Below, piece after piece: positions 7,753 through 62,165 of a DNA stretch of 64,000 bases. Where the stretch lies: positions 5,332,001 to 5,396,000 of the forward strand of contig NZ_CP036278.1 in assembly GCF_007748035.1 (NCBI RefSeq), read 5' to 3'. Under the pieces are notes generated by a model. That model saw only the letters and a program-made list of their open reading frames with translations, was not told the origin of the DNA and did not search any database. The DNA is from Aeoliella mucimassa (GTDB lineage: Bacteria; Planctomycetota; Planctomycetia; Pirellulales; Lacipirellulaceae). The position numbers and the translations under genes were made by a program. The stretch's first letter is position 1, and each line of letters starts with the position of its first letter.

Positions 7753-7786
7753 AAAACAGATTCCCAGCGATGGGAATCTGTTTTTA
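7753..7786 (+). terminator. Terminator hairpin built on an AGATTCCCA box
   Basis: Stem AAACAGATTCCCA, loop GCGA, stem TGGGAATCTGTTT, then further T residues. The arms use the same AGATTCCCA/TGGGAATCT box that recurs in the two long repeats at 17.4 and 62 kb. Confidence 0.85.
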
Positions 7787-8615
7787 TATGCGCTGATGTT
7801 GCGGCTGATTGGTTGGAACTTTCATTCTGCGGGAGCATCCAATGACGGAAGAATCTCGTAGGTCACAGGACCCCAACGAGCGTTCCGACGATACGTCGGT
7901 CCTCGGCCATATTCCTCAAATCTCCCCCCTCCCCTCGGGAGTCTTTTTGCCCCCAAAAGCGGGAAATCGATTCGTGGGGGCTTTATTCTCTCCGCACCGA
8001 GGGCGGCAACTTCACGTTTCGCCTGGGTTTACCGACATTTTTTGCATTGTCAAAAAACGCCCGCCGGGAGTTTCGCCCCACCCTGCTGTTGAGTGGGGGC
8101 AAAACGATTCTTCTCCCTCGCTGGGATCAACGACACGGACCGCGTGGCGGTCCGGCTAGGGAGGTACTAGGATCGTTGACCTTCGCGCGGCAGGAAGCCG
8201 AAAGCTTAACGCCGACAGCCGATAGCCAAATTGTCAAACAGCGTCGCACCCATCACGCGGTGGTGCACTGATCATTAGTGCACATCTGGTGGCCAATTTC
8301 TACTAGAAAATGGAAAGATTCTTCGGCCACGGATGAACACCGATGAAACACGGATAACGAATTACACCCTCCCTCGGGAGGGTCCGGCTATCAGGCCGGG
8401 GGAGGGGCGCTACGCAAAACCAAACCTGGGGCGACACTTCGGCTCGTGGAACTCGCCGGCGTTTGCCCCAGGCTAATCTGTTTCGCCACTCCGTGGCTTA
8501 AAAGGTAAAGGAGTTGTCACCACACTGTAACCCAGGCCCTTGTGGCCTGCTGGAGGTGCCACGCATTCCGCCACAAGGGCGGAGGCTACAACTGTTTCCA
8601 TATTGCGAGAAGAGT
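7787..8615. other. Gene-free region with pieces of dispersed repeats
   Basis: About 830 bases without a credible gene. The stretch 8195-8325 resembles part of the 17.4-kb repeat (a CCGACAGCCGATAGC segment, then ATTAG, then GGTGGCCAATT). 8365-8405 has a hairpin-rich CCCTCCCTCGGGAGGGTCCGG... block, similar to 18110-18165. 8538-8579 holds an inverted repeat CCCTTGTGG / CCACAAGGG. These look like repeat debris between the DUF6807 gene and the convergent gene at 8616. Confidence 0.6.
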
Positions 8616-10841
8616 CTACTCTTCCTCGCCGTAGTACTGCTGCAAAAGCTCTTCGTCCGACAGGTCGAACTCCACCTGCTGGCGGATTGGCGTCATCTTT
8701 GCGGGTGAGGCTTTGACCGTCGCTTGGGCTTCGACAATCTCGTTGTAGTGGGCTAGCGGGTCGCGACAATATCGCATTTTGTATTGGAACTCTGCATCGG
8801 CTAGCGCTGCGGCTTGGGAAAAGATCGCCGCATATACCAGCAACCAGACGATCGCCGCCCCCGCGGCGGAACGGCCGGCAAAGCGGAGTAGTTGAGACCA
8901 GCGTTGCCGATCGGCAGGCACAAAACCAAGTCGCCAGCCTTCGCGTTGCTGCCTGGCCGACCGCAGCACGTACCACCCGATCACCAGCAGCAGCGACAAC
9001 GCGAGTCCCACGTAGTGCCCCAGGTGGGCGAACCACTGCAGCACCGCCCACATCCAAGAGCCGGTTTGCAGTTTGGTGCCGGCGCGAATCACCTCGGCAT
9101 CGAGGCCGCCGAATCCGCGGGCGTGCACCCACAACTCGGGGGGATTCGCAGCGAGCGCTGCCAACGCCCAGGAGACCCAAGGCCATTGGGCCGCCAACAC
9201 AGCGATCGCGGTGGTGATCGCCAGCAGCGTCCGTGTTTGATAGCGAACTTGCCGGCGACGTATCACACGCAGCAGTATCCATGCGGCCCCCGCAGCGATG
9301 GCAAACGCCGAGAGCCAGATGCCGCCGATGATCGCCCGCTGCTGCCAGGCGTGGCTAATTACCTCGGCCGGGGCCATGCCTAGCACCACGATCGTCAGTC
9401 CATAGCCTACTAGCCAGGCAACGCACTGCCGGACAAAGCCGAGATGCGAGGGCGTGTCGCCCCGGCGAGCCAATAGCCAGCCGACCAACAGCAGCGGTAA
9501 CGCGAGGTACAACATCGCGCCGGCCGACAAACTGGCGACCGCCGAGTAGGTAGCCTCGCGGGTGGTGCTGAACGGTTCGGGGTAGACTTCGGCATGCAGC
9601 GTTTGCAACGCGGCGGTAAGTGTCGCCGCGTCGATGCGGAGTTGGCGCTCTCGCAATTTCAGCGCGTCGAGTTCCGCTTGCGAGATGGCGTCGGGGAAAG
9701 CCTCAGCTATCTTTAGCAGTCCTGCGTAATTAGCCTCGCGGATGACTGCGTATCGAAGTTGAAGATCAAGTGCAGAAGTCTCCTTGGGTAGGATCGCTTG
9801 CTCAAAGAGCCGTAGCGTTTGACGTTTGTGATCTATTGCCAGCTCGATGTTGCCGTCCAAAATCGCGTCGTCGGCTTGCACCATGCACCAGCGCGACAAC
9901 ATAGCATAGAGCCACGTTTGTCGGTAGGAAATCAATCGATTGGTCGCGACGATGGGCCAGTCCGATTGCTTGGCCCCAGATTGGCTAACTAACTCGGCAA
10001 TGCAGGGCGTCCCTGCTTCGCCAAACGCTAAGTACGCTTTCTGCTGCCCCGCTTCGAACCGCTTGCAGCCTTGCAGGAACCCGGACTCGTCGTGAATTGC
10101 GAGCGTCCTACTTACAGTACTTGCAAGCCTTCTGGTTTGCTGATCGATTCGCTGAAAGTCTTCGTCTTGCGTAGCATCATCGGGGAAGAACGCATCGTAA
10201 CTGGCCGACTGCTCCCACAAACTAAATGCCGCCAAGTAATCGTAGAGGGCGTTGTCGGGATCGTGCTGCTGACACTGTTCGAGCACTTGCAGCCAGTCCG
10301 CTTCGCGGGGTGAAAAGTCGAGGCCGCTCATGAACTGGTCTCCCTCGAACTCAAGCAGCGCCCGCATTCGCCACCAGTCGACGTTCTGCGGTTCGAGCTC
10401 AGTGGCTCGTCGTGCCAGCTCCAGACAGCGGGGCAGGCACCGCTCGCGAAACTCTGCCGTGGCCCGGGCAATGGCTTCATCGTCTAGCTCCATGCCCATG
10501 GACGGAAAAGCCTTGGGATATTCCTTCGACTTCATGTAGCCGGACATAAAATCGACGCCCGGGGAGTCGAGCACCCAAGCGGCTCCCATGGCAAGCGAGG
10601 CCGAATCGGGATGCTCGGCGACCACGCGATCGGTCTCCGCCAGCCAGAACTTGGCTTGGTCGACAGGAGGACACTGACCGATGGGCGTGTGCTGCAGCCC
10701 CACCGGGGTACCGAGGGCGAATTGCCACTGGTCCGACAGTAGCCCCCATCCGTACTCGGTATGCGATGCGACCGAAGCGATCCGCACGACCGCCAGCAGC
10801 ACTGCCGCCGCGACTACCCATTTGGCATACCGATGTCCCAT
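8616..10841 (-). CDS. Large multi-pass membrane protein, unknown function
   Basis: 741 residues. A signal-anchor helix (about residues 9-26) leads into a soluble region of about 400 residues rich in Ala, Glu, Leu and Trp. It contains TPR-like helical segments, for example LPRCLELARRATELEPQNVDWW. After that come six or so membrane helices between residues 430 and 685 (such as LYLALPLLLVGWLLA and ALSLLLVIGWYVLRS). The acidic C-terminus ends YYGEEE. I do not recognise a family. The TPR likeness is an impression from the sequence. The gene stands alone, downstream of mutS on the same strand but separated by 255 bases. Confidence 0.75.
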   Translation of the reverse strand: MGHRYAKWVVAAAVLLAVVRIASVASHTEYGWGLLSDQWQFALGTPVGLQHTPIGQCPPVDQAKFWLAETDRVVAEHPDSASLAMGAAWVLDSPGVDFMSGYMKSKEYPKAFPSMGMELDDEAIARATAEFRERCLPRCLELARRATELEPQNVDWWRMRALLEFEGDQFMSGLDFSPREADWLQVLEQCQQHDPDNALYDYLAAFSLWEQSASYDAFFPDDATQDEDFQRIDQQTRRLASTVSRTLAIHDESGFLQGCKRFEAGQQKAYLAFGEAGTPCIAELVSQSGAKQSDWPIVATNRLISYRQTWLYAMLSRWCMVQADDAILDGNIELAIDHKRQTLRLFEQAILPKETSALDLQLRYAVIREANYAGLLKIAEAFPDAISQAELDALKLRERQLRIDAATLTAALQTLHAEVYPEPFSTTREATYSAVASLSAGAMLYLALPLLLVGWLLARRGDTPSHLGFVRQCVAWLVGYGLTIVVLGMAPAEVISHAWQQRAIIGGIWLSAFAIAAGAAWILLRVIRRRQVRYQTRTLLAITTAIAVLAAQWPWVSWALAALAANPPELWVHARGFGGLDAEVIRAGTKLQTGSWMWAVLQWFAHLGHYVGLALSLLLVIGWYVLRSARQQREGWRLGFVPADRQRWSQLLRFAGRSAAGAAIVWLLVYAAIFSQAAALADAEFQYKMRYCRDPLAHYNEIVEAQATVKASPAKMTPIRQQVEFDLSDEELLQQYYGEEE

Positions 10842-17424: not shown

Positions 17425-18030
17425 TAGCATTATGATAGATTCCCAATTTACCCACCGATGGGAAAATTGAATCTCCGCCGACTCTATAAAACCAGTGGTT
17501 TCGTCCCTCGAATAGATTCCCATTTCCAAAAACGCATCGAGTGGGAATCTATTTTCGCGCTGGGTATCTATCGCAAATCGTTTACCAGCAATGAGTTGCA
17601 TCAACACCTCCGCGATAGTTGCCCAAAATAGATTCCCATGGGTGGGAAACTATTTTGAGTTGGACGTTGGGAGTTGGAAGTTGGGGTTTGAAAGGGTAGT
17701 AGCGTGGGTCCAGGAGCTTCCAGCGTCGCAGCCCCACCACCGCATTACCCACACGCGCAGCAGCCAGCCCCCACGCCAGCAACCATTCGCCTGCGCGTCG
17801 CTAGTCGTTTGTTATTTAGAGAAACATCACATCTGATTCACCTCCTTTCATAAAAAGCCAACAGCCGATAGCTGAAAGCCGACAGCCTCAATCACCTGTC
17901 CATTAGAACACCACAGGTGGCCAATTCCCAGCGAAAAATGGAGAGAATCAAAACACCCAATTCCCCCTTCGCTGGCCCAATTCCAGGAACGCGGGTCGGC
18001 CTCTTAGGGCCGGGGAGGTGGGAAGCGGAG
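17425..18030 (-). repeat. Composite intergenic repeat, copy A
   Basis: About 600 bases that match 61513-62165 in reverse orientation. The best-conserved part (about 17430-17650) is roughly 90% identical by eye and contains several ATAGATTCCCA / TGGGAATCTAT boxes able to form hairpins. Further out come a GCTGTCGGCTTTCAGCTAT segment, a GGTGGCCAATTCCCAGCG segment and a CCCACCTCCCCGGCCCT segment, in the same order in both copies. Open frames across it share a peptide with copy B, but the base differences change amino acids freely, so I treat it as non-coding. The strand is given relative to copy B read as plus. Confidence 0.75.
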
Positions 18031-49109: not shown

Positions 49110-50435
<1,326 letters not shown>

Positions 50436-50447
50436 TGATTCCCCCCT

Positions 50448-50515
50448 CCTGGTAACACCTGTCGTGGGTTAGTTCAAAATTACGCTGCCGCGGTGATGGC
50501 CTCGGCCAGCGTAGG
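50448..50515. repeat. Direct repeat upstream of the integrase, copy 1
   Basis: Begins CCTGGTAACACCTGTCGTGG and continues through a TCAAAAT(T/C)ACGC segment and a GCCGCGG...GGCC hairpin region. Closely matches 50602-50670. It starts 12 bases before the integrase start codon on the minus strand. Confidence 0.75.
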
Positions 50516-50601
50516 TATCAAAGGTCATGCCGACCGCTTCCGTGCGATTCTGACGCTTCCTGTGGCTGCCTTTCTGGCAGTTTTCACTTTCTCCGCCTCA
50601 A

Positions 50602-50670
50602 CCTGGTAACACCTGTCGTGGGTTACACTCAAAATCACGCCGCCGCGACTCTCGCCGCGGCCGGCGTGGG
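50602..50670. repeat. Direct repeat upstream of the integrase, copy 2
   Basis: The first 24 bases are identical to copy 1, 154 bases away; the rest is similar and again carries a GCGGCC-rich hairpin. It ends just before the stop codon of the gene at 50679. Confidence 0.75.
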
Positions 50671-50678
50671 TCTCTCTA

Positions 50679-51041
50679 CTACTTCGATCGCAGCTCTTCT
50701 AGGTAATGCTCGATCGACTCGATCAAGCCTACCGCGAGTTGCAGGTTGATCGATTTGCCGTGAGCCACTCTATTGAGGCTCACCGCATATCGCTTCGCTT
50801 TGCTCGCTACAGGGCTTGGCAGCAAGTCGTGAAGCACCGCAGCGTCAACTAGTGCGACGATACCGCTAGGGTGCTTGGGCTCGCACCCCGCATCGGCGAC
50901 GATCTCACGCAAAGCACTTTCAAGGGCTAGGCGTGCGGTGATGAGGGCGGGTGCGATCCATCCCAGCAAAGCAAGTGGCTTTGCTGCCTCCAATAGATCG
51001 TGCCCGACCACGTGCGCCCTAGGTACGACGGTTGCCATCAT
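50679..51041 (-). CDS. HEPN/DUF4145-like protein, element gene
   Basis: 120 residues. The helical pattern DLLEAAKPLALLG, then ALITARLALESALREIVADAG, and VSLNRVAHGKSINLQ resembles small HEPN or DUF4145-like folds, with a near-terminal N-x-x-AHG. That is only likeness by eye. The start at 51041 overlaps the upstream stop by ATGA, which supports it; the longer frame lies antisense to no known feature and looks non-coding. It is followed by the integrase region. Confidence 0.55.
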   Translation of the reverse strand: MMATVVPRAHVVGHDLLEAAKPLALLGWIAPALITARLALESALREIVADAGCEPKHPSGIVALVDAAVLHDLLPSPVASKAKRYAVSLNRVAHGKSINLQLAVGLIESIEHYLEELRSK

Positions 51042-51484
51042 TCGCAGCCCCCTTCCGATTCGCCGGTCACGTCCGCCAGCACCTCGGCCAGTTCGGCCTT
51101 GCTGATCGGTTCCACGTCGACCCACTTGATCCCGGCGGGGAAAACCACTTCGTCGGTCGATAGCTGCTTGGCCGCGACGTTCGCGGCCCACTCGGCCCGC
51201 GCCTGCTCGGTGGCAGCATTTAGCTCTGCTCGCCTCGCTAATCGCCGCGCCGAGCGAGCTAACGCCCGATCGCGATTCGTGACTGCGCTGAGCTTCTTTT
51301 CCGAGGCCATGAACCTTGCGATTCGATCGGCCGCCGCATTCGCATAGCTGCAGCGGGGGCAGCGACAAGATTCCTTGTAGTGGTGCTCCCCTCGCTCGAT
51401 GTCTACGTCCTTCAGCGCTCGCTTGCTAGCCGGGGAACGTGAAGAAAGGGGGGCGACTCGCTTGTTTTTCGCAACACTTATCAT
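51038..51484 (-). CDS. Element protein with cysteine cluster, unknown
   Basis: 148 residues. It has a CRCPRC cluster near residue 43, in HHYKESCRCPRCSY, possibly a metal site. A basic helical region follows (RALARSARRLARRAELNAATEQARAEWAANVAAK), then an acidic C-terminus. I take the ATG at 51484, with GGAAGG about ten bases upstream. A longer frame from 51628 would run through the three-way-junction element and is less likely. It is coupled by ATGA to the next gene. Confidence 0.5.
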   Translation of the reverse strand: MISVAKNKRVAPLSSRSPASKRALKDVDIERGEHHYKESCRCPRCSYANAAADRIARFMASEKKLSAVTNRDRALARSARRLARRAELNAATEQARAEWAANVAAKQLSTDEVVFPAGIKWVDVEPISKAELAEVLADVTGESEGGCE

Positions 51485-51532
51485 CCGCGTTGAACCTTCC
51501 ATGGATCGCCAGAGTGGCGAGTCCATAAAGAA

Positions 51533-51618
51533 AGAGCATGCGCGTACTGGCGCTATGAGGCGGAGATGAACCCGCCCGGGGTCCTTGCGGATACCCCACA
51601 CCAATACGCGCATGCTCT
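51533..51618. ncRNA. Three-way-junction structured element
   Basis: Arms AGAGCATGCGCGTA (51533-51546) and TACGCGCATGCTCT (51605-51618) pair perfectly, with three more pairs inside a mismatch. Within lie two hairpins: GGCGG/CCGCC (51559-51576) and GGGGTCC/GGATACCCC (51578-51597, loop TTGC). The result is a compact three-way junction of 86 bases. The strand is unknown. It lies 49 bases upstream of the ATG at 51484, so on the minus strand it would be a leader RNA. It could also act as DNA. Confidence 0.55.
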
Positions 51619-51730
51619 CTGATTTCATCGTTGGGTTTCATAGTCATCTATTCCCGTTAAGGGCGTTTCATGCTCACATTCTGCATTTCCGCCACTGAAA
51701 GGTCAAGCGCACTTTCTGGGTGTTCACTAG

Positions 51731-52202
51731 CGATCGGTTCAGGCAACGTTGCCTGAACCGATCGGCCACCGCCTGCAGCACCACCGCCAGCGACGTGGCG
51801 GGATCTCAATCGCGACCGCCCCCAACATTCAGCAAAAAGTTGCTGAAGGTTCGCTCGAAAGGTTCAGGCATTTTTGCCTGACGTTTCGCCGCTCGTAGAC
51901 TCAGGAACTGTTTCCTGAGTTTACGAAGCACTCAGAACCGGTTGTGCAAAAAGTGGCACAACCGATCGGCCCACACTCACGCTTCGAAACCGGTGGAAAA
52001 TATTCCACCGATTTCGCCACCCGACTCCGGAAATAATTCCGGAGTCTATCCACCATCGCTGCGGTCAGAAATCGGTGCAAAAAGTTGCACCGATTTCCAG
52101 TCGATCGACCACCGCCGCCAGCGACGTCGCTCGAGTACTCGTTGAACCTTCCGGTAAACTTACCGGGATGTTCGATCTGTTCAGGAAACGTTTCCTGGAC
52201 AG
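51731..52202. repeat. Array of eleven non-identical hairpins
   Basis: Stems start at 51731, 51784, 51828, 51864, 51899, 51939, 51991, 52023, 52068, 52151 and 52177. Arms are 6-16 bp, and loops are mostly 2-8 bases (AAAG, ATAA, AATA, CG, AC). Examples are CGGTGGAA-AATA-TTCCACCG and GACTCCGGAA-ATAA-TTCCGGAGTC. The first is a perfect 34-bp palindrome. Stem sequences differ, but most close with A/T pairs at the loop and G/C pairs below. No frame across this region looks coding. None has a terminator T-tract. Confidence 0.85.
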
Positions 52203-52225
52203 AATCGCTCGGCCGAGCCCGCCGC

Positions 52226-52558
52226 CTACGACGGTGGCACCAGGCCGACCTCCTGTTTCAGCATCGCCAACTCCTCGCGCAGCACCTTATTCGCGTTTTC
52301 GACCGACTCACGAGCGACGGCCTGCACGTCGGCGGGCAACTGTGCGATTCGCTTCTCTGCAACCTCGCTGCCGAGCGTTAACAGCTCTTCGAACGTGCTG
52401 CACGCGCGGACCTCGTCGACGGTGACCAGGTCCGTGATTAGCCAGTCGACGAAAGCCGAGGTCATGTGCTCGGCCGCCTGGTGCATCTGAATATCGATGT
52501 GGGGCAGGCCGACGTAGCAATCTACGAAGAGCTTGCGAATGTGTTTGTCGATGGTCAT
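52226..52558 (-). CDS. Small helical element protein, unknown
   Basis: 110 residues, mostly helical: MTIDKHIRKLFVDCYVGLPH, then HQAAEHMTSAFVDWLITDLV, and a C-terminal coiled-coil-like KRIAQLPADVQAVARESVEN. It follows the tape-measure-like gene by 10 bases, so translation is probably coupled. The longer frame in this register overlaps that gene and is rejected. In phages this position often holds a tail chaperone or minor tail protein, but there is no sequence support for that. Confidence 0.6.
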   Translation of the reverse strand: MTIDKHIRKLFVDCYVGLPHIDIQMHQAAEHMTSAFVDWLITDLVTVDEVRACSTFEELLTLGSEVAEKRIAQLPADVQAVARESVENANKVLREELAMLKQEVGLVPPS

Positions 52559-52568
52559 GCGTTTCTCA

Positions 52569-54446
52569 CTACTCCTGTTGGGTCGTGCCGTAGCGTTCGT
52601 AGAGGAGTTCGCCAGCAGATTTCTCAGGCGTGCCGTAGACTCGCACAGGCACGCGCTCGCTGCCCTTATCCAGCTCGTTTTGCTCTTGAATCCCAAGGCT
52701 TCGTTTTTGGACTTCCAATTGCTCTTCTAGTAGCGGAATGAGCCTCTGAAGCACGATCGCTTCGTTTGCGTTGCCGGGGGTCGACTGCAAATACTTCGCG
52801 TACCCAAGGCGGTTCTCGAGACCGATGTATTCGTTCCTCGCCGCGCCTAGCACGATACTGCGATCATCACCTAGCGCGTCTTGCGTATTCGTCAGGCCGC
52901 GACCAATGGCCGCCATGGTTGGATGGCCGCGACGGAGCCAGGCTGCTTCGATGTCGTTCGCGGCCGCCTCGCTCGCCGATTCAATATCGCCATACTTCAA
53001 GGCCGCATCTTTCAACCGACCAGCCGAGCCGGGCACCATATTCGCGGCGCTCACGGAAGGATCGACATCAATGAACCGGCGAGCATCCAGGTAGCCATCG
53101 GCCGCGGCGAGGTTGCTGCGAATCCGAGCGAAGCCTGCACGATCGTTCTGCAACGCCGAGAACGCCATCGCAGCGTTGCTCTCGCCCAACACGTTGATGG
53201 CCGTGCTTCCAGCATCTACTTGCGATTGGATGCTATCGAGCGTTTCTACCAGCGTCCCTTTCGCCAGGCCGCGACGTAGGAGCGAGTTATAGAACGCGCC
53301 GAGCTGCGTTCCCGCCTGGTCGATGTTGCCCGCCTGTTTTTCCAGCACGGCCAACGCCGCCATTGAAGAGTCGCCGGTGAACTTCAACTCGCGAGACTGC
53401 TGCCCAAACTTCGTGCTGGCCTGGGCGGTCTCAGCCGCCGACACCTGCGTTTCCTTCGAAGACACTGAGACACGGTCGGCGATTTCGCGCAGTGAATACC
53501 GCCCATCATACAGGTTGCCAACTTTGCTGGCGGACTTGCCGAACTCAATCAGCTTGTCGCCAGCGATTTGTCGGTTCTCTCCGATATCGAGGAGCGCCCT
53601 CACGTCCTCTTTCGAGTAGCCTGCATTCTTCACAGCGATCGCGAAATCACCGCCCTGCGAGTAATTCTCGAAGATGCCGCGTTTGACCGCCTCCCGAGCC
53701 ACGCCGAGATTGGCCAAGTAATCTTCCGGCGAGTCGGAGACCTGCTGCAGCTCGCCGAGTGACCCGAGCGATTCAACCACCGCGCTGCTGGCCGACTGCG
53801 CGGTTTGTTCCATCTGACGGAGTGTCTGCATTGCCGTGCTGGCGGCCGACCCAACGCTCAGCAAGCCAGTCACGCCAGCGGCCAAACCGCTAAGCACCTG
53901 CTTGCTGAACATCCCCTTGGTGGCCGAGGTCGCCGCGTGCAGCTCGCCACGAAGCTGGGCGATCCTACGTCGCCGCGTCTCTACGCTGATCGCATCCGCC
54001 CGGTGCAGCTTAATCGTTTCACGTAGTTTTCGGTTGAACGACTCCTGCGGAGTTTCCAGCGACTGCTTGAGCGTTTCACCCTGCTGCCGCAGCGCCTGCT
54101 TGACTCGCTCCGACTCCGCTGCGAGCTTGCGTTCGCTCTCGGCCGCCTCCCGAAGCTTTGGGTCGAGGCGGTCAAGCTGTTGACGCCAACGATTCGCAGC
54201 GGCTTCGGCCTTGCCTTGCTCCAAGGCTCCCTTTTCGACGTACTGGGCGAGCCGCGCGAGCTTGTGGTTATACTGCTCGACCTTGTCGCCCGTGGCCGCG
54301 AATCGCTCCGCCTCGCTCTTCAGCTTCGCGAGGCCTTTCGCCGCGCCGGCCCCTTGCTGTTCCGATTTGTCGAGTTCGGCGTTTAGCTGACGGATCAGCT
54401 CCACCGCACCGCGACCGGAGCCTTGAAGTTCGAACTTTGTGCCCAT
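52569..54446 (-). CDS. Tape-measure-like tail protein
   Basis: 625 residues. The N-terminal 200 are a long charged coiled coil (ELIRQLNAELDKSEQQGAGA, then many Lys/Glu/Arg/Ala repeats). Then come a hydrophobic Gly/Ala segment (SKQVLSGLAAGVTGLLSVGSA, about residues 187-207) and a helical C-terminal half rich in Ala, Gly and Asp. This is the usual layout of phage tail tape-measure proteins, which set tail length. At 625 residues it is on the short side. No other tail gene is recognisable nearby, so the role is inferred. Confidence 0.7.
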   Translation of the reverse strand: MGTKFELQGSGRGAVELIRQLNAELDKSEQQGAGAAKGLAKLKSEAERFAATGDKVEQYNHKLARLAQYVEKGALEQGKAEAAANRWRQQLDRLDPKLREAAESERKLAAESERVKQALRQQGETLKQSLETPQESFNRKLRETIKLHRADAISVETRRRRIAQLRGELHAATSATKGMFSKQVLSGLAAGVTGLLSVGSAASTAMQTLRQMEQTAQSASSAVVESLGSLGELQQVSDSPEDYLANLGVAREAVKRGIFENYSQGGDFAIAVKNAGYSKEDVRALLDIGENRQIAGDKLIEFGKSASKVGNLYDGRYSLREIADRVSVSSKETQVSAAETAQASTKFGQQSRELKFTGDSSMAALAVLEKQAGNIDQAGTQLGAFYNSLLRRGLAKGTLVETLDSIQSQVDAGSTAINVLGESNAAMAFSALQNDRAGFARIRSNLAAADGYLDARRFIDVDPSVSAANMVPGSAGRLKDAALKYGDIESASEAAANDIEAAWLRRGHPTMAAIGRGLTNTQDALGDDRSIVLGAARNEYIGLENRLGYAKYLQSTPGNANEAIVLQRLIPLLEEQLEVQKRSLGIQEQNELDKGSERVPVRVYGTPEKSAGELLYERYGTTQQE

Positions 54447-54471
54447 GCTTAAATCCCTTCTGAGAGCCTCT

Positions 54472-54561
54472 GTAAGTAAGTGATTTGGCGGCGAGGAGCT
54501 TCTGGAATACCGGGGGGAACGCCATCTGGGGCCTTCTAGCCGCGCCCACTTACTTACTTAC
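54472..54561. repeat. Inverted repeat GTAAGTAAGT / ACTTACTTAC
   Basis: GTAAGTAAGT at 54472-54481 and ACTTACTTACTTAC at 54548-54561 are complementary over at least ten bases, spaced by about 66. They lie upstream of the tape-measure start and could form a leader hairpin or a protein site. Confidence 0.45.
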
Positions 54562-54725
54562 CCTCTGACCTTCGAGTAAATAAAAGTGCCGCGATTGCTG
54601 GCGGAGCCCACTGCGGGAGGGGGGGCCGGCAAAGGACCCTTGGCCCCCGGGGGGGGTGGGGGGTGCCCCAGGGCTCGCCACAGCTCGCCTGCCATCGCCT
54701 CGCGTTGGCTTTTGCTTTGGCTCAT
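54558..54725 (-). CDS. Small element protein
   Basis: 55 residues: MSQSKSQREAMAGELWRALG, a proline run (HPPPPPGAKGPLPAPPP) and a short end NRGTFIYSKVRG. AAGGG lies about ten bases upstream of the ATG at 54725. A longer frame in the same register is possible but lacks a site. It lies between two element genes on the same strand. No function. Confidence 0.4.
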   Translation of the reverse strand: MSQSKSQREAMAGELWRALGHPPPPPGAKGPLPAPPPAVGSASNRGTFIYSKVRG

Positions 54726-54841
54726 CACCTGAGCCCTTTTCGTCAACCCAACGCAATAGCAGCCCGCTGGTGAATTCAAGTGGCAGCGGGCCGCCAGCGG
54801 CCGACCGTCGCGAGCAAGCCCGCTGCCATCCGCAAGGTCTG

Positions 54842-55036
54842 CTACAGTGGTAGGCGGCCCATTTTCGAGGCTTCGCGTGCGTTGGGATTCCGACGCTTCA
54901 AAATTGCCCACGCTTGCCTGCGAGTCTTGCCGCTTTCTCGTTGGATCTCGCGCACCTTGACGCGTGCCTCCGCTAGCGACAGGCCTCCCACTTCTTCCTC
55001 ACTGGCTTGACTGTTTGATTGTTCGCTCATCTCCAT
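54842..55036 (-). CDS. Small charged element protein
   Basis: 64 residues with a charged middle (LAEARVKVREIQRESGKTRR, then QAWAILKRRNPNAREASK). AAGGAG lies six bases before the ATG at 55036, a strong site. The basic helix-rich C-terminus could bind nucleic acid. It lies in the run of minus-strand element genes. Confidence 0.6.
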   Translation of the reverse strand: MEMSEQSNSQASEEEVGGLSLAEARVKVREIQRESGKTRRQAWAILKRRNPNAREASKMGRLPL

Positions 55037-55087
55037 GACTCCTTTGCAAAACCTAAAACGGAAAAACCGCCACCACGACTGATTAGC

Positions 55088-55989
55088 TCAGTCGCTCGGC
55101 AGCAGCATCGAAACTTCTAGCTGTCGCGCATTGATCCACGCATGGATCGGCTCGCGTGATTCTTCCACCAATTGCTCGATCTCTTGGTGAAGCTCCGCAA
55201 GCTTCTTTTCTTTCGCTGGAATGGCTTCACGCATGCTCTCAAGAAACTCGCTCCACCTTTTACGATTCAGCGATTTCTTTCCTTCGCTGGAGACTTCCAA
55301 GGCCTCCGGGCAGAGGTTCTTCACCGCCTGCCATACGATGCGATATCGAGTGTGTGGCGAAAGCCAAGACCACAGCGATTGCGAATTGCTTTGATCGCTC
55401 ATTCTCTTTTCGTCTGCGATCTCGCGAGCAAGATGCTCGGCCGCTCGCCGCGATGCATCCACCCCCAAATCCGTGGCTCGACGCTCGACGACTTCACGTA
55501 AGATGGGGGGAGCCGATTTGCACAAACAATCATACAAGCGTTTGATGCGAATCACGTCGCTGTTCGCTTTCGAGTGCCGTTCGCGGAGACCAGCCAGCCG
55601 TGAGGTAATTGCTCGCAACTGAGACTCCAACGCCGGTTCGTTTTCCGCCTCTACCGAAAGATCCTCGATAGTGGCCCGCGTTTCATTTAGCGTTTTTTCG
55701 GCTTCCTCCAGTTTCTGTTGGGCGGCCTGTAACGGTTCGGGCCAGCCCCCGATTTCCTCAAGCATTCGATTGCAATTGCGGCGAGCCTGTAAGAGTCTCG
55801 CAACGTCGTGCTTGCTCTCGATTCGAGGCTGGCCGCTCCGACCGCTCGCTACGCCCGTCTGGAGTATCGCCCACTCTTCTGGGCTCACATGAAATTCAGC
55901 GGGGGTGAGTAGGGCATGGCGAGATTCTAGGGCATCGACAACCGCCTCGAACGCAACCGCCATCCGCAGTTTGTTTTCTCGCTCGTTGT
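55088..55989 (-). pseudogene. Coiled-coil element protein, main part of an IS-split gene
   Basis: The present frame from the ATG at 55963 gives 291 residues. Upstream of that ATG the frame stays open to the IS edge (DNERENKLR). The protein is rich in Glu/Lys/Ala coiled coils (QAAQQKLEEAEKTLNETRA and KEKKLAELHQEIEQLVEESR), with a conserved-looking SPHTRYRIVWQAVKNLCPEAL segment. Joined to the 22 codons at 56891-56956 through one copy of the target triplet it makes about 323 residues in frame. No family is recognised. The fragment could still be translated from 55963. Confidence 0.65.
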
Positions 55990-56890
55990 CTCAGAACGTG
56001 TTTTGAAATTGCCTGATTAAAGAAAAACAGCTACGGCTCCCTCTTTTGGTTAGCAGCCTGAGGAAGGAGCCGTAGCATGAAAACGGAAAGGAAGTATGGC
56101 AGTGATGTCACCGATCGACAATGGCAATTGCTTCGTCAGTTGTTGCCAGCACGTTCGCAGTTCGGACGTCGTCCGATTGACCGCCGGCGGATCATCAACG
56201 CGATCTTGTACGTCGTCCGCACGGGCTGCCAGTGGCGGATGCTGCCTAAGGACTTTCCGAATTGGAGTACGGTTTACGGCATCTTCTGGCGTTGGAGAAA
56301 TGATGGCACGTGGCAGAAGATTCATGATGCGTTGCGAGCCAAAACACGCAAAGCGGCAGGCAAGAAGTCGACACCCACGGTAGCGATCATCGACAGCCAA
56401 TCGGTTCGCACGGCCGAAGGAGGTGAAGAAAGGGGCTACGATTCGGCCAAGAAAATCACGGGCCGCAAGCGTCATGTGGCGGTCGATACGCTCGGATTGT
56501 TGCTCGCGATAGTCGTTCATAGCGCGGATTGGCAGGACCAGGACGGAGCCGAATGGGTAATGGACAAGCTGGGCGAGCAATTCAAGCGAATCAAGATTGT
56601 GTTTGGCGACTTCGCGTACGGTCGATCAGGGTTGCCCGATTGGACCTGGGAAACGTTTGGTTGGATTCTACAAACGGTGCTCAGGCCAGTCGGCCTAAAA
56701 GGGTTTGTGGTATTGCCGAAGCGATGGATCGTGGAACGAACTTTCGCCTGGCTGGCCCGACATCGACGGAACAGCAAGGACTACGAAAAAACAACCGCCT
56801 CCAGCGAAGCCATCACCTACGTCGCCATGATCAGCCTCATGTCGAAAAGACTGGCCAGCGCGGAAAAGTGAATTTTAAAACACGTTCTAA
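55990..56890 (+). mobile_element. IS5-family insertion sequence
   Basis: The element proper is about 55993-56887 (895 bp). Ends GAACGTGTTTTGAAATT (left) and, reversed, GAACGTGTTTTAAAATT (right) match with one change. It is flanked by TCA (55990-55992) and TAA (56888-56890), which fit the TNA target of the IS1031-like group but are not identical. It carries one transposase gene and lies against the direction of the surrounding genes. Confidence 0.85.
56077..56871 (+). CDS. IS5-family DDE transposase
   Basis: 264 residues, intact. The N-terminal part has VTDRQWQLLRQLLPARSQFGR and an INAILYVVRTGCQWRMLP segment. The DDE residues sit in AIIDSQSVR, VFGDFAYGR and the PKRWIVERTFAWLARHRRN end. The gene starts at the ATG at 56077 with AGGAAGGAG upstream. 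It is complete in a single frame, so no programmed shift is needed. It may still be active. Confidence 0.93.
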   Translation: MKTERKYGSDVTDRQWQLLRQLLPARSQFGRRPIDRRRIINAILYVVRTGCQWRMLPKDFPNWSTVYGIFWRWRNDGTWQKIHDALRAKTRKAAGKKSTPTVAIIDSQSVRTAEGGEERGYDSAKKITGRKRHVAVDTLGLLLAIVVHSADWQDQDGAEWVMDKLGEQFKRIKIVFGDFAYGRSGLPDWTWETFGWILQTVLRPVGLKGFVVLPKRWIVERTFAWLARHRRNSKDYEKTTASSEAITYVAMISLMSKRLASAEK

Positions 56891-56956
56891 GATCGCGAGC
56901 ACCTCATTTGTGACGGGCAGCAGGCGGGTTTCTTTCTTCTGAGTCGCGGTCGGCAT
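56891..56956 (-). pseudogene. N-terminal 22 codons of the IS-split gene
   Basis: ATG at 56954-56956 with AAAGGA eight bases upstream, then MPTATQKKETRLLPVTNEVL and AI. The frame runs straight into the IS end. Its 5' side follows the S49 peptidase gene in the run of element genes. Confidence 0.6.
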
Positions 56957-57001
56957 CTTCAATCCTTTGTGGTGGTGGGGGGGGAGTGGTTTGTTGCTCT
57001 T

Positions 57002-57922
57002 CTAGTGGAGCCGCCGGTAGTCGTCGGCAGCTTCGGCAAGTGTTGGGTATTTGCGTCGCAAAGCAGCCTCCTGTGATTCACTGAGGTCTGCCAAATAGTC
57101 GATGCCAGGGTGCGCGGCGATAGCCAGCTCGGCGTATTTCTCGTAGGCATCCTTGCCGTGAAGATCGGCGTGCTTGTCGTTCGCCAGCACCTTCGCGATG
57201 GCATGCTCGGGTGCTGCCACCTCGTCGACGAAGCCCCGCTTCAACGCTTCCTCTGCGTAGTAGGTTTCGGCGGAAATCGCCTGCAGTATCTGGTCGGAAG
57301 TCATGCGTTTTCTTGAGCGCCGCGGCGGCACGCGATTTATATACGCGAGGAACCACCTGCTAACTTCCTCCACCTGTGCGCGAACCGCCTCAATATCGCC
57401 CTCAGTGACAGGCACGCCGGGCATTCCGCGATGCTTCGCATTTGCCGAGGCAACCGGAATCACTTTAATGCCAGCCGCTTCGTAAGCCGCGCTCGAATCA
57501 GTGAGCACCGAAACCACACCAACGGAGCCCACCACCGTTGAAGGCGAGGCGACGATTGTGGTTGCTTGCGAGGCGATCCAATAGGCGGCGCTCGCTAGGT
57601 ATTCGCTCGCAACCACAGTTACCGCTTTCGCTTCGCTCAGCTCTCGCACAAGATCGGCTGTTTCAGGTGTGCCAGCGACCAGACCGCCCGGCGAACTCAT
57701 GCGCAGGATTACGTGGCCGACTGAGTCGTTTCGCAGCAACGAGTAGAGCCGCTCACGAACCCGCTCCAGATACCAAGGCGTCAACACGCCGTCGATCCGG
57801 CTTGTCGCGACCATTTTTGATTCCTCGCGATAACGCGCAACCTGGTGCGTTGGCGAAATCGCCAACGCTTCGTGAAGTTCAGCAGTTGCCGCCGGCAGCA
57901 GTGCCGCTAATTCGTGCCTCAT
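57002..57922 (-). CDS. S49-family (SppA-like) peptidase, phage type
   Basis: 306 residues. The clp/crotonase-like fold has VILRMSSPGGLVAG (71-84), then YLASAAYWIAS with nucleophile Ser111, and SPSTVVGSVGVV. Lys163 in ANAKHRG lies 52 residues after the serine, the same spacing as the Ser-Lys pair of Bacillus SppA. Phage members process the capsid or scaffold. With no capsid gene here, the substrate is unknown. The start at 57922 overlaps the upstream stop by ATGA; the longer frame is unrelated. Confidence 0.85.
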   Translation of the reverse strand: MRHELAALLPAATAELHEALAISPTHQVARYREESKMVATSRIDGVLTPWYLERVRERLYSLLRNDSVGHVILRMSSPGGLVAGTPETADLVRELSEAKAVTVVASEYLASAAYWIASQATTIVASPSTVVGSVGVVSVLTDSSAAYEAAGIKVIPVASANAKHRGMPGVPVTEGDIEAVRAQVEEVSRWFLAYINRVPPRRSRKRMTSDQILQAISAETYYAEEALKRGFVDEVAAPEHAIAKVLANDKHADLHGKDAYEKYAELAIAAHPGIDYLADLSESQEAALRRKYPTLAEAADDYRRLH

Positions 57923-58518
57923 TTTGAGTGACCTCGTGTAACTTCGGTGAACGTTTCGAATGCAAACGCTTCGTCTCGGGAAAGCAGCAGCGAGAACAAC
58001 GACTCGGCCAACTCCGCGCCGATGTGCTGATCCCGAAGCCACAGCAATCGTTCGCGGGAAACTTGCCAGCCAACGCCGGGACCGGGCACCTGGTCGGCGT
58101 GCCAGCGCCAGCCAGTTGCCAACTCGCCGTCGAGCGTGCGCGCCGCGGTAACACCAACGGTCGATTCGGGCGTGACGAAAGTCACATCGAAATAAGTGCT
58201 TAATCTCAGGCCGTAGCCGAGACCAGCGCGAAGCAGCAGGCCAACCGGCAGGCGTCTTTCCTGCCGAGCAAACCGCACCGCCTGCTCGACCAGAGCGAAG
58301 CCTTGAGTTGCTTGGCAGTTCGAATCAAAAACGATGAGCGTCGGCCGCGTGAAGCTCTCAATCAGGTCAGCCGCTTCCACCCATCTATCGAAATCAATCG
58401 TGCCATTCAAGCGAAGCACGTCGAGCGCCGAGTGCCATTCCTGGAAAACCTCGCCGGCAGCCTCGCCGCGGGCAACATCGCCAACGAAGGTTGCTTTTCT
58501 GGTTTGTGTATCGCTCAT
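57919..58518 (-). CDS. S49-like protein lacking the catalytic serine
   Basis: 199 residues. It aligns with the peptidase downstream: LIVFDSNCQATQGFALVEQA takes the place of the SSPGG strand-helix. LRAGLGYGLRLSTYFDVTFVTPESTVGVT takes the place of the nucleophile helix and SPST motif. The serine position becomes Gly101 and SSPGG is lost. I read it as an inactive paralogue, perhaps a structural partner of the active one. The likeness is by eye. It overlaps both neighbours by ATGA. Confidence 0.65.
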   Translation of the reverse strand: MSDTQTRKATFVGDVARGEAAGEVFQEWHSALDVLRLNGTIDFDRWVEAADLIESFTRPTLIVFDSNCQATQGFALVEQAVRFARQERRLPVGLLLRAGLGYGLRLSTYFDVTFVTPESTVGVTAARTLDGELATGWRWHADQVPGPGVGWQVSRERLLWLRDQHIGAELAESLFSLLLSRDEAFAFETFTEVTRGHSK

Positions 58519-58742
58519 AATTCGCCATCCTCCACAATTCCAAGCAGTGCCGCTTCACAAGCCGGACCAATCGGCTCGCCTGCCGGCCAGGTCGCCAGCA
58601 ACGCTTCCGCCATGTTTGGCAAGTGCTCGCGCAGCAGGCGTTCGGCCTCGTCGCGGCCGATTCGCTTCGCTCGCTCCCGGGTAGCACGTGTGAACGGCTC
58701 GCGCTGACACTGCTTTGGCGGTCGCGGGTAAAGCCTTTTCAT
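58515..58742 (-). CDS. Small element protein, unknown
   Basis: 75 residues: MKRLYPRPPKQCQREPFTRA, then TRERAKRIGRDEAERLLREH and an acidic Ala-rich end. Overlaps both neighbours by four bases (ATGA), which supports it as a real coupled gene. No family is recognised. Confidence 0.6.
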   Translation of the reverse strand: MKRLYPRPPKQCQREPFTRATRERAKRIGRDEAERLLREHLPNMAEALLATWPAGEPIGPACEAALLGIVEDGEL

Positions 58743-59767
58743 GCTGACACCTCACTTCGCTGGTGCTTCTCCCGCCATAGCTTTGCCGCAAGCAGGTTAA
58801 CTCTATTTCGCGGAAGCCCATGCGGTGCCTCTCTCGCTGCTTCTTGCTGCACCGCCTTCCACTCAGTTCGTGGGAAACTGTGCGAGCCCGCAACAATCCG
58901 CGAAAGCCCATCGTCGGCATCAAGCTCGGCCATGAGTGATTGAACCGCAGCCGATAGCGGTGGCTTCACGTCAGCAGCAGCGTAGCCACGTCGGAAGTCG
59001 AGCCACCCCTCGGAAACTTGCAGGTCGGGCTTCGCCGCGCAGACACGCCGATACAAAGCGAGCGCGGGTTGACTCCAACCATTTCGGTATCTACTCCAAT
59101 ACGCGACGACTTCGAGAACGTGCTCGGCAGCAACGCCGTTTTCGCGAGCGGAGGCGATCGCCTTGCCCGTCTGGCTCACCCCTGCTCCCTCCAATTTATC
59201 CACCACCTCCCCCCAATCACACGCGTGCGACGCTTCGTCGCACTCGCTGGGGTGGGGTGGGGTTTGGTTGGGTAGGGTTGTATGGGTACTACTGTTGGCT
59301 ACGTGCGCAGACGACATACGTTCAGGACGTGCGTTATCAACATACGTAGCATTCGTGCGTTTTGAGCTTTCGCTGCTAGCAAGAGTCGAACCTACGTCAT
59401 CAACGTATGTCGACGACGTAGGTTCAACTTCTAGCGACTTTACGATGAAGCCCCCCTGCCGCGATACCACGCCTTTCACATACCGTGGTGCGTGCTCGCA
59501 CCAGTCGTGAACGACAAGGCGATGTTCAGGGTGAGGGTCGAGCCAGCCAGTTTCGACGAGTGCGTCAACCAGCTCGTTTTCATCGCGTCCCCAGTCGATC
59601 GCAATCGCTATTTCCTCGTTGGAAAGCCTGCCGATATCGCCCCTTCGAGCTTCGTTTTGGGTGGCGATCCACAGTAGCTCTAGCACGCCAGCCGCCTCAA
59701 AGTCCCGCAAGCCAAGCCGGCGTGCAAGTCGTTTGAATTTCGTAAGCGTAGGAGTGATGTGCTTCAT
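58739..59767 (-). CDS. Replication-initiator-like protein
   Basis: 342 residues. The N-terminal domain (about 1-110) resembles phage replisome-organizer winged helices: MKHITPTLTKFKRLARRLGL, LELLWIATQNEARRGDIGRLSNEEIAIAIDW, then VETGWLDPHPEHRLVVHDW. A Ser/Thr-rich linker (about 112-170) follows, and a helical C-terminal domain with DWGEVVDKLEGAGVSQTGKA. The linker region of the DNA contains repeated motifs that may be an origin. The gene overlaps the next by ATGA. It may start replication of the excised element. Confidence 0.72.
   Translation of the reverse strand: MKHITPTLTKFKRLARRLGLRDFEAAGVLELLWIATQNEARRGDIGRLSNEEIAIAIDWGRDENELVDALVETGWLDPHPEHRLVVHDWCEHAPRYVKGVVSRQGGFIVKSLEVEPTSSTYVDDVGSTLASSESSKRTNATYVDNARPERMSSAHVANSSTHTTLPNQTPPHPSECDEASHACDWGEVVDKLEGAGVSQTGKAIASARENGVAAEHVLEVVAYWSRYRNGWSQPALALYRRVCAAKPDLQVSEGWLDFRRGYAAADVKPPLSAAVQSLMAELDADDGLSRIVAGSHSFPRTEWKAVQQEAAREAPHGLPRNRVNLLAAKLWREKHQRSEVSA
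59300..59425. repeat. Iteron-like motifs inside the replication gene
   Basis: ACATACGT occurs at 59314-59321 and 59340-59347 and inverted at 59403-59410. CCTACGTC at 59391-59398 pairs with GACGTAGG at 59414-59421. They lie in the region coding for the linker. Confidence 0.45.
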
Positions 59768-59811
59768 GCGAAGGGCTGCTTATGTTCTCGAGGAATGCAG
59801 GGAAAAACCGG

Positions 59812-60015
59812 CTACCGCGACGGGCACAGGATCGGAAGGCCTTCGTCAGCGACGCGTTGAAGCTCCTGCGGGTGGAGCTTGATAAGCCGCCCCATGGGAA
59901 CGTGTGCGATATTGCCGAGCTTGATGTGAGCATCGAGCGTGCGGATACCAATACCAAGTTGTTTTGCAGCTTCTTCGCGAGAGAGAAGAAGGCGGCGCGA
60001 GACCGGAACTGTCAT
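59812..60015 (-). CDS. Excisionase-like helix-turn-helix protein
   Basis: 67 residues. MTVPVSRRLLLSREEAAKQL, then GIGIRTLDAHIKLGNIAHVP, then the wing-like end MGRLIKLHPQELQRVADEG, match the MerR-type excisionase/HTH_17 domain. It could be the recombination directionality factor for the integrase or a regulator. The start at 60015 is inferred from the domain; a longer frame upstream would cross a hairpin and is not coding-like. It precedes the replication gene on the same strand. Confidence 0.8.
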   Translation of the reverse strand: MTVPVSRRLLLSREEAAKQLGIGIRTLDAHIKLGNIAHVPMGRLIKLHPQELQRVADEGLPILCPSR

Positions 60016-60114
60016 CGGAAAAACCCTTACACGTGTTGAGTAATCAAGAGAAGCAGGCGGCATTGCCTGCGACACTGCGCAAGAGAATAGCGAGAGAAGT
60101 TTCGCTTGAAAATT

Positions 60115-60165
60115 GAAGCGCATCGAAGCGCTTACATAACTTACCAAAGCGCTTCGATGCGCTTC
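60115..60165. repeat. Perfect 19-bp inverted repeat
   Basis: GAAGCGCATCGAAGCGCTT (60115-60133) pairs with its exact complement at 60147-60165, loop 13 bases. It lies between the end of the gene at 60176 and the HTH gene, so it may be a terminator (an AATTTTC follows on the minus strand) or an operator for the HTH protein. GAAGCGC is repeated within each arm. Confidence 0.7.
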
Positions 60166-60175
60166 GTTGAACCTT

Positions 60176-60913
60176 CTAAGAGAAGCTAGGCATCGGCGGC
60201 AGCCGATGCTTCTCAACGTAATTCTGGGCGGCTCGTCGCGCCCCTGGGTCGCTACCAAGGTGCGACCAACCGTCAACCTGCTTGATTCTTTTCCGAATTT
60301 CCGAGTAGGGAGTAGGAGGAACCTTCATCCTCTCCTCGTAGATAAAGCGGTCACGATCCTCGTTGTAGGAAGGTCTGGGCAATGAAGAACGCCCTGACGT
60401 TGCGCGTTTTAGTTCTTTGCTGAGTGAGAAACGGTTGAGGGGTGGAACGGGCTCCAACTCCCGCAGAGAATTGGCAAGGGTGTTGAAATGCTGGCGGCGC
60501 AACCAGAACAGATTCAACTTCGGTGGTGGCAACTCCCGGTCCCTGATCTGGTGAAACGACCAGTGAGGCGACTCGCCTTCATGCAACTCAGTAAGCCGAT
60601 CAAGAATTTCGATCCCAGCCGAATAGGTCGCTTCCGTGAATGAGTTACCCGGGCAACCGGCAACCACTGCTGGGTAGTCGTTCGCTCGGTCGAGCGCCTC
60701 CCGGACACCGTCAATTTCAAGTGCTTCCCAAAGGGCATGCAGATCGTGATAGAGCATCGATCCGATCTGAACGATGAAGAGAATTGGGCGTTCATATTCC
60801 CATTGCATTTCCTGAAACTGAAAAACGGTTCTCAACTCCACGGTAGCGGTGTAATCGACTCTCCCAGCAGCCGCGACGGCAGCCTCAATATCAGCATCGG
60901 AAACGTTGGCCAT
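60176..60913 (-). CDS. Element protein of unknown function
   Basis: 245 residues, rightmost element gene. It has an acidic N-terminus (SDADIEAAVAAAG), then a mixed region WEYERPILFIVQIGSMLYHD and LRRQHFNTLANSLREL, and a basic Pro-rich end. I see no known motif. It lies where satellites and prophages often carry accessory or defence genes, but that gives no evidence of its role. An AAGG stretch precedes the ATG at 60913. A strong hairpin lies just upstream. Confidence 0.6.
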   Translation of the reverse strand: MANVSDADIEAAVAAAGRVDYTATVELRTVFQFQEMQWEYERPILFIVQIGSMLYHDLHALWEALEIDGVREALDRANDYPAVVAGCPGNSFTEATYSAGIEILDRLTELHEGESPHWSFHQIRDRELPPPKLNLFWLRRQHFNTLANSLRELEPVPPLNRFSLSKELKRATSGRSSLPRPSYNEDRDRFIYEERMKVPPTPYSEIRKRIKQVDGWSHLGSDPGARRAAQNYVEKHRLPPMPSFS

Positions 60914-60939
60914 GGCCTACCCTTCATCGTAGCCAACCC

Positions 60940-60985
60940 GGCTCGCCACCTGTTCGAAGGATAGAAGAACAGGGAGGCGAGCCGA
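60940..60985 (-). promoter_or_regulatory. Hairpin in the leader of the 60176 gene
   Basis: CGGCTCGCC-A-CCTGTTC pairs with GAACAGG-GA-GGCGAGCCG, 16 pairs with a small bulge and an 11-base loop. It starts 27 bases before the gene start, so it could be an operator or an attenuator. Confidence 0.55.
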
Positions 60986-61035
60986 CGCCAGGGATCAGCT
61001 GGCTAGTTGGAAGTGTGTCTAGAACAGAAGTCATT

Positions 61036-61137
61036 CTAGCGTGATTTCTCTTGAGATCCTTCCCCCAGAATCTCGCGCAGCGCATTGCGCAGCGCTTTCG
61101 AGAGAAGTGCTGTAATTTGCGGGGAAAACGCGGGAGA
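61036..61137 (-). other. int: Stranded integrase C-terminal codons
   Basis: Read from the attR core on the minus strand in the integrase frame, it gives SPAFSPQITALLSKALRNAL, then REILGEGSQEKSR and a stop (TAG, 61036-61038). In the excised circle it would replace the six residues PPTKGL now supplied by the tRNA. Confidence 0.6.
61075..61095. promoter_or_regulatory. Candidate integrase arm site, right
   Basis: GCGCAGCGC-ATT-GCGCAGCGC, one base different from 49283-49303 and in the same orientation, 42 bases from the attR core. Confidence 0.5.
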
Positions 61138-61159
61138 TTCGAGTCCCTCCCGGACTACT
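61138..61159 (+). repeat. Attachment site attR (22 bp)
   Basis: Second copy of the tRNA 3' end. It marks the right end of the element. The tRNA sequence is not continued to its left. Confidence 0.9.
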
Positions 61160-61512: not shown

Positions 61513-62165
61513 CTCTAAATCCCACCTCCCCGGCCCTGAGAGGCCGACCTGTGCTGCGGAATCGGGGCCAGCGGAGCGCGAAGAAGAGGGACTGCGGGCG
61601 GCTATCTTTTCTTGTCAGTTTTCGCTGGGAATTGGCCACCGGTGGTGTTCTAATGGATAGGTGGTGTTGTGGCTGTCGGCTTTCAGCTATTGGCTTTTTA
61701 GTGATTGGAGGTGAATCAAATGTAATGCTTGGGTTGTGTCCGACTTCTAGCGACGCGCAGGCGATGGTTTGCCGGCGTGGGCGTTCGCTGCTGCGCGTGT
61801 GTCAAAGCTGTAGGCTATAGGCTGTAAGCGGTAGGCTGAGATCCTTCGGGTCGCTGGAAGCTCCCGTCAGGATGACATTCCCCAATCCGCATTCCGCAAT
61901 CCCAAATCTCCAATCGTCTCCCAACCAAAATAGTTTCCCACCCATGGGAATCTATTTTGGGCAACTATCGCGGAGGTGTTGATGCAACTTCTTACTGGCA
62001 AACGACTTGCGATAGATTCCCAGCGAGAAAATAGATTCCCACTCGATGCGTTTTGGGAAATGGGAATCTATTCGGGCGCGAAAACCACTGGTTTTGTAGC
62101 GTGCGTGCGGATTCAATTTTCCCATCCGTGGGTAAATTGGGAATCTATTTGCCCAGCGTTGGGAA
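61513..62165 (+). repeat. Composite intergenic repeat, copy B
   Basis: Matches 17425-18030 in the opposite orientation, with the same order of blocks. The 61925-62160 part holds several ATAGATTCCCA / TGGGAATCTAT boxes. A frame from a GTG at 61976 would give a 79-residue peptide shared in part with copy A; I do not annotate it. The region between 61800 and 61920 differs most from copy A. Confidence 0.75.

Follow-up and report, generated by a model that had tools for sequence, protein, structure and literature searches.

Mycobacteriophage stoperators are protein sites that occur in large numbers in gene-free gaps, where they hinder transcription, and they are short, asymmetric, and conserved. 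As described by Weinberg et al. (2010, PMC2864571), the STAXI motif consists of tandem structured units found near integrases and, occasionally, c4 antisense RNAs, and that account leaves open whether the motif acts as single-stranded DNA or as RNA. The description by Petrillo et al. (2006, PMC1590033) has stem-loops between co-directional genes favoring the 3' side of the upstream gene. The C4 antisense RNA of P1 is described as contributing to the regulation of Ant (PMC8201110).

Here, we report an array of palindromic hairpins at positions 51731-52203 of the window, which is the whole 64,000-nucleotide stretch of DNA that was analyzed. The nearest described idea is the STAXI motif, which it resembles in the traits just listed. 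However, the STAXI units of that account are pseudoknots in two or three copies, often with UUCG loops, whereas the array is made of simple palindromes, numbering ten or more, and none of the tract hairpins has a UUCG loop. Like stoperators, the array places many sites in a gene-free gap, but the sites are long palindromes with variable arms. Compared with the intergenic 3'-end stem-loops as Petrillo et al. describe them, the tract is an array with a shared apex, and it ends before a promoter-like site. Among papers on hairpin arrays, terminators, satellites, and structured RNAs, no like case was found by title, and none was found that joins "c4 antisense RNA", prophage, and Planctomycet; most subscription papers lay outside both searches.

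Setting within an integrated element

The array belongs to an element integrated at a tRNA-Met gene (Table 1). That gene occupies 49110-49184, and its 3' end recurs at 61138-61159. Encoded in the element, all on the minus strand, are an integrase, an S49-type head protease, and a replication-initiator-like protein, together with a tape-measure-like protein on the same strand whose assignment is weaker. PHROGs gave no match to terminase or major capsid families among 14 distinct window ORFs. The 12-kb element is satellite-like, with tape-measure-like and head-protease genes and no recognized terminase or major capsid gene in those 14 ORFs.

Flanked by the gene at 52226-52558 and the minus-strand promoter-like site at 51706-51678, the array follows the end of the tape-measure operon and precedes the promoter of the c4-2-like antisense-RNA operon, both of which run on the minus strand. 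One promoter-like site was found in the scan, compared with 0.1 in shuffles. The 110-aa protein encoded next to the array is predicted to be helical, with a mean pLDDT (66) that is too low for a fold search. Its gene has no relatives in viral or genome contigs, and across 43 genomes of the family, it is represented by three copies in its own genome and one weak 43-residue match.

Table 1. Coordinates in the window of the element, its relevant genes and signals, and the hairpins of the array
Feature	Positions	Strand	Remarks
Integrated element	49164..61159		12 kb; bounded by 22-bp repeat of tRNA-Met 3' end
c4-2-like structured RNA	51526..51625	-	Rfam c4-2 match, full model, below gathering cut-off
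Promoter-like site	51678..51706	-	TTGACC-17-CAGAAT, between array and c4-like RNA; 9/12 consensus matches
h1	51731..51764		perfect 17-bp palindrome; apex present; closest to c4-operon promoter
Weak hairpin	51784..51801		6 bp; apex absent
h2	51828..51847		stem 8 bp; apex present
h3	51864..51881		stem 7 bp; apex present
h4	51893..51926		stem 15 positions including one G.T on + strand; apex present
h5	51939..51964		stem 9 bp; reading with 4-nt loop puts one mismatch at apex position 2; apex present by the test
h6	51985..52016		stem 14 positions; apex present
h7	52023..52046		stem 10 bp; apex present
h8	52068..52097		stem 13 bp; apex present
Weak palindrome	52120..52131		6 bp; apex absent
h9	52151..52166		stem 7 bp, imperfectly extended to 52144-52173; apex present
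h10	52176..52203		14-position palindrome; apex present; closest to upstream gene
110-aa gene	52226..52558	-	function unassigned; ends just upstream of array in reading direction
Tape-measure-like gene	52569..54446	-	PHROG 167, E 1.4e-6; Pfam PhageMin_Tail below cut-off

Several other features of the region were recorded. An IS4/5-family transposase ORF (56077-56871, plus strand) runs opposite to the element genes at the place where homology to two sister elements, L006 and L007, breaks. Two window copies of a box, GGTAACACCTGTCG, were found (50451-50464 and 50605-50618; expectation 0.02), and several more are visible by eye in noncoding sequence of both L006 and L007. Similar inverted repeats around ACGTAGGTT are found at 59388-59425, in the replication-initiator-like gene, and at 9257-9303 of L007, at the start of an integrase-like ORF; iterons are a possible identity for them. 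Finally, a dispersed host palindrome, approximately CCAAAATAGATTCCCA-N4-TGGGAATCTATTTTGG, has three window copies (7753-7784, 17624-17657, and 61925-61960), with none expected by chance, and is also present in L073 (15955) and L346 (721).

Hairpin density far above expectation

The array of hairpins is real. A gapless scan of the tract found 8 hairpins with a score of at least 8, 10 with at least 7, and 12 with at least 6, so that the eleven palindromes of the original prediction were a fair count. Their centers are spaced by 90, 35, 37, 42, 49, 34, 48, 76, and 31 bp. The comparison with shuffled sequence that had been proposed as a check on hairpin density left the density far above that of the shuffles: across 1,000 dinucleotide shuffles of the tract, the mean was 0.07 (maximum 2) at a score of at least 8 and 0.31 (maximum 3) at a score of at least 7. 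RNA folding of the tract was better than that of 100 out of 100 shuffles on each strand (z of -14.4 for plus and -12.6 for minus). Sixty stretches of the same genome (1.175 Mb) served as a host sample and held 378 hairpins scoring at least 8, the richest 480-bp window having 4 compared with 8 in the tract. The expectation of no coding look and no T-tracts was also borne out, as no ORF of at least 60 aa (ATG or GTG starts) lies wholly within the tract and U-tails are absent from both strands. A terminator scan of 51400-52300 found none inside the tract on either strand, its sole terminator-like site falling outside.

Elsewhere in the genome, DNA matches to the tract occur only in the two sister elements, and a search of phage DNA with 51500-52300 gave no match. 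When Rfam was compared with the array (E of at most 5), the only hits were microRNA and lncRNA families, which we took as chance. Three candidate identities were rejected. A REP/BIME-like host repeat would be dispersed, but there are no dispersed copies and the apex described below is rare among host hairpins; for a CRISPR array, the longest nearby direct-repeat family is two 14-nt copies at 79%; and a CsrA-sponge RNA has GGA in most of its hairpin loops, which is the case for 0 of the 10 loops here.

Tape-measure searches of viral contigs found nothing. A head-protease search yielded 80 viral loci, among which at least four hairpins within 500 bp were present in L085 and L092, both of other types. 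The same density was seen among 83 loci with a c4 pattern in L253, which is the G033 locus discussed below, and in L277, which is of another type. Pairs of apex-bearing hairpins within 400 bp, among the loci collected, were limited to the tract and its copies, L007, and a chance-like case in L293. Groups of at least three hairpins, judged by eye to be of another type, were present in L171, L173, L201, L204, and L207, elements that had been found via the replication protein or c4 RNA.

A fixed apex on drifting, self-complementary arms

When the ten tract hairpins scoring at least 7 were aligned by their centers, every one had an A-T pair beside the 4-nt center, G-C or C-G as the third pair, and G-C as the fourth. 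This apex, G-[G/C]-N-A-(4 nt)-T-N-[G/C]-C, was scored as A1, S3, and G4, and it provides all ten with the shared symmetric core that would be sought in an operator array; A-T closes the loop in 10/10. It was defined after inspection of the tract hairpins, and therefore the informative figures are the controls, in which it was found in 0 of 82 other window hairpins scoring at least 7 and in 7 of 378 host hairpins scoring at least 8 (3 of 139 in the first 400 kb).

Arm sequence diverges with distance from the loop. Mean identity was 0.76 at positions 1 to 4, 0.49 at positions 5 to 8, and 0.32 at positions 9 to 12, compared with about 0.25 for shuffled arms, and these values were reached by 0, 0, and 97 of 2,000 shuffles, respectively. 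Loose arm subgroups recur (h1/h3/h10 and h6/h8). The tract hairpins belong to one drifting family whose apex is fixed. The original prediction had stem sequence changing completely from hairpin to hairpin, which the identities at positions 1 to 8 and the recurring subgroups contradict; its description of the stems as unlike was half right, fitting the arms below the apex while missing the apex common to 10/10. Nor is pairing held without sequence conservation, as it had proposed, given that a specific apex is conserved. For the same reason, a binding protein that reads shape alone is not the simplest view, although the palindromes may still be protein binding sites. The RNA-processing, replication, and packaging roles that it also listed gained no direct support.

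The part of the proposal that has held up is that pairing is kept hairpin by hairpin. Each left arm pairs with its own right arm in 37 of 40 cells at positions 5 to 8 and 31 of 40 at positions 9 to 12; against the right arm of another hairpin, the figures are 157/360 and 118/360. Complementarity therefore belongs to each hairpin rather than to a shared consensus, and either of two causes could underlie it, selection that keeps the arms paired or a mutational mechanism that makes palindromes perfect. Seventeen hairpins were examined for imperfect pairs, of which 6 would be G.U on the window plus strand and 2 on the gene strand, with 5 of other kinds; these are too few for a choice of strand and lend no support to a gene-strand RNA.

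Sister elements and other c4-like loci

The structured RNA next to the array matches c4-2 over the whole model, with positions 1-79 of 79 aligned to the consensus structure, yet its 32.8 bits are below the Rfam gathering cut-off of 41. In an alignment of nine c4-like copies, both sides had changed in 17 of 35 pairs. A model built from these nine copies, R1, found 31 c4-like copies in 22 of 396 relatives, nine of the matches being its own founders; Rfam's own c4-2 model exceeded its cut-off in 1 of 296 genomes. These RNAs form a c4-2-like family of planctomycetes, with other copies at L006 7898-7997, L007 7454-7554, and L164 2524-2622. The c4 pattern was found in 3 stretches of viral contigs and 93 of genome contigs, from which the 83 loci were taken; 30 of them were scored with R1, and four hold a c4-like RNA, all planctomycete.

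Comparisons of upstream ORFs, tails, and TTGAC covered 21 of 30 c4-like loci plus L006, and TTGAC lies no more than 200 nt upstream in 14 of these 22 regions. Upstream hairpins were tabulated for 30 of the 31 R1 matches, the L006 copy, which had no locus, being left out. Within 800 bp upstream, 21 of the 30 loci (one with just 166 bp of upstream sequence) had no hairpin scoring at least 8, six had one, and single loci had two, four (G033), and eight (the window). The array is therefore not a general part of c4-like loci. At G006, no such hairpin follows a co-directional upstream ORF, and at G043, the single hairpin lies at least 597 bp upstream while the nearest co-directional ORF ends 138 bp upstream. 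At G007, a hairpin is present though the nearest upstream ORF runs the opposite way. G019 has a U-tailed hairpin (6 T of 9) in the equivalent slot, with a co-directional ORF on one side and the c4-like RNA on the other.

Sister elements L006 and L007 lie elsewhere in the same genome and share 85-88% DNA identity in their late genes, and their corresponding tracts are shorter with fewer hairpins, several of which carry the apex. L006 has one strong apex hairpin (7536-7561), which shares its GGAAACGTTTCC core with h10 and stands just after the gene that also precedes the window array; the L006 tract was matched by 68 of 1,000 shuffles on count and by 1 of 1,000 on score. The L007 tract is within chance by gapless counts (139 of 1,000 shuffles). 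L007 also has hairpins at another site, which follows ORF 8544-9170 and lies where a long ORF (9234-10631, a putative integrase) beside tRNA-Leu begins; there are three, two of them with the apex, a result reached by 0 of 1,000 shuffles. Free decay of stems in homologues had been named as evidence against selection on structure, and here the outcome was mixed. In the L006 counterpart of h1, 5 of 15 pairs had changed (one compensatory, two G.T, and two broken); in L007, 8 of 15 had changed, with seven broken, one G.T, and only the apex kept, in a register without a bulge; when one bulged base is allowed, about ten pairs still form, as judged by eye.

In another genus, the G033 locus (L164) has the order tape-measure-like gene, gene, hairpins, c4-like RNA, gene, and integrase, with a tape measure that is 29% identical over the matched part. 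Five hairpins score at least 7, two at the end of the upstream ORF and three in the gap, and neither the total nor the gap count was reached in 1,000 shuffles. Most of their apices are unlike that of the tract; by eye, three of the five have an A-T pair closing a 3-nt center, and one also has the G.

What the array may do

With a co-directional operon before it and an immunity promoter after it, the array is placed as an insulating barrier would be. Our leading interpretation, which we hold tentatively and put at a probability of about one in three, is that the hairpins shield the c4-2-like immunity promoter from late read-through. They may form either as cruciforms in the DNA or within the RNA as it is being transcribed, and they would act jointly to stop or trim late read-through, leaving the immunity operon under the control of its own promoter; RNA polymerase or a bound factor would respond to the conserved apex. 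Consistent with a barrier are the excess of hairpins over shuffles and host DNA, own-arm pairing beyond what shared sequence provides, and the location of the tract between a co-directional gene and a promoter-like site. Furthermore, apex hairpins sit close behind the same gene in L006 and behind another gene in L007, the G033 gene order recurs with hairpins that shuffles do not produce, and the G019 slot holds a U-tailed hairpin. Yet the tract itself has no U-tails (gene-strand tails have 0-3 T of 9), and a barrier would therefore have to be non-canonical. It also has to contend with the c4-like loci that lack upstream hairpins, some of them co-directional such as G006, with the distant hairpin of G043 and the misplaced one of G007, with the chance-level L007 tract and its largely broken h1 counterpart, with the different apices of G033, and with G.U pairs that do not favor a gene-strand RNA.

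Ranked a close second is the possibility, somewhat less favored, that the palindromes are double-stranded DNA sites on which a dimeric protein of the element or host would occupy two G-S-N-A half-sites, so that the cluster of sites before the c4-operon promoter would serve as an operator or a roadblock. The symmetric 12-bp core with its variable, A/T-leaning center, the closeness of h1 to the promoter-like site, and the retention of the h10 core in L006 between different arms all agree with such sites. A shared site, however, leaves own-arm pairing at positions 5 to 12 unexplained, the center spacings lack helical phasing, and the proteins tested included no regulator common to the sister elements. 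That pairing could instead be maintained by template-switch correction between the arms of a functionless palindromic repeat family that multiplied by duplication and is drifting, an explanation that we place third and consider unlikely. It would account for the identity gradient from the apex outward, the loose subgroups, the unequal hairpin numbers in the sister elements, and the breakdown of the h1 counterpart in L007, but the family is not dispersed in the host, and another genus has hairpins in this slot as well. That the element uses the array as a single-stranded DNA signal for its replication or packaging seems improbable: pairing is possible on either strand and the centers lean to A/T, but no origin or packaging gene lies beside the array among the proteins tested, and the replication-initiator-like gene, 6.5 kb away, has its own inverted repeat. 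Least plausible is a run of ordinary intrinsic terminators. Although the position behind a co-directional operon and the short A/T runs flanking several stems, as in h6 and h8, would suit terminators, U-rich tails are missing from the tract on either strand, and all of the loops are closed by A-T.

More speculatively, and with a good deal of doubt, the tract may represent a new class of cis-acting array in satellite-like elements of planctomycetes, one in which numerous hairpins, free in their stems but alike in a conserved apex, are read by a putative hairpin-binding factor and keep a structural operon apart from an immunity switch based on antisense RNA. Because tip and stem vary independently of each other across its hairpins, the array is a natural set with which recognition of shape and recognition of sequence could be separated by experiment. 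If it is a barrier or is read at multiple sites, then a small mobile element of a little-studied phylum would separate structural from immunity transcription without ordinary terminators.
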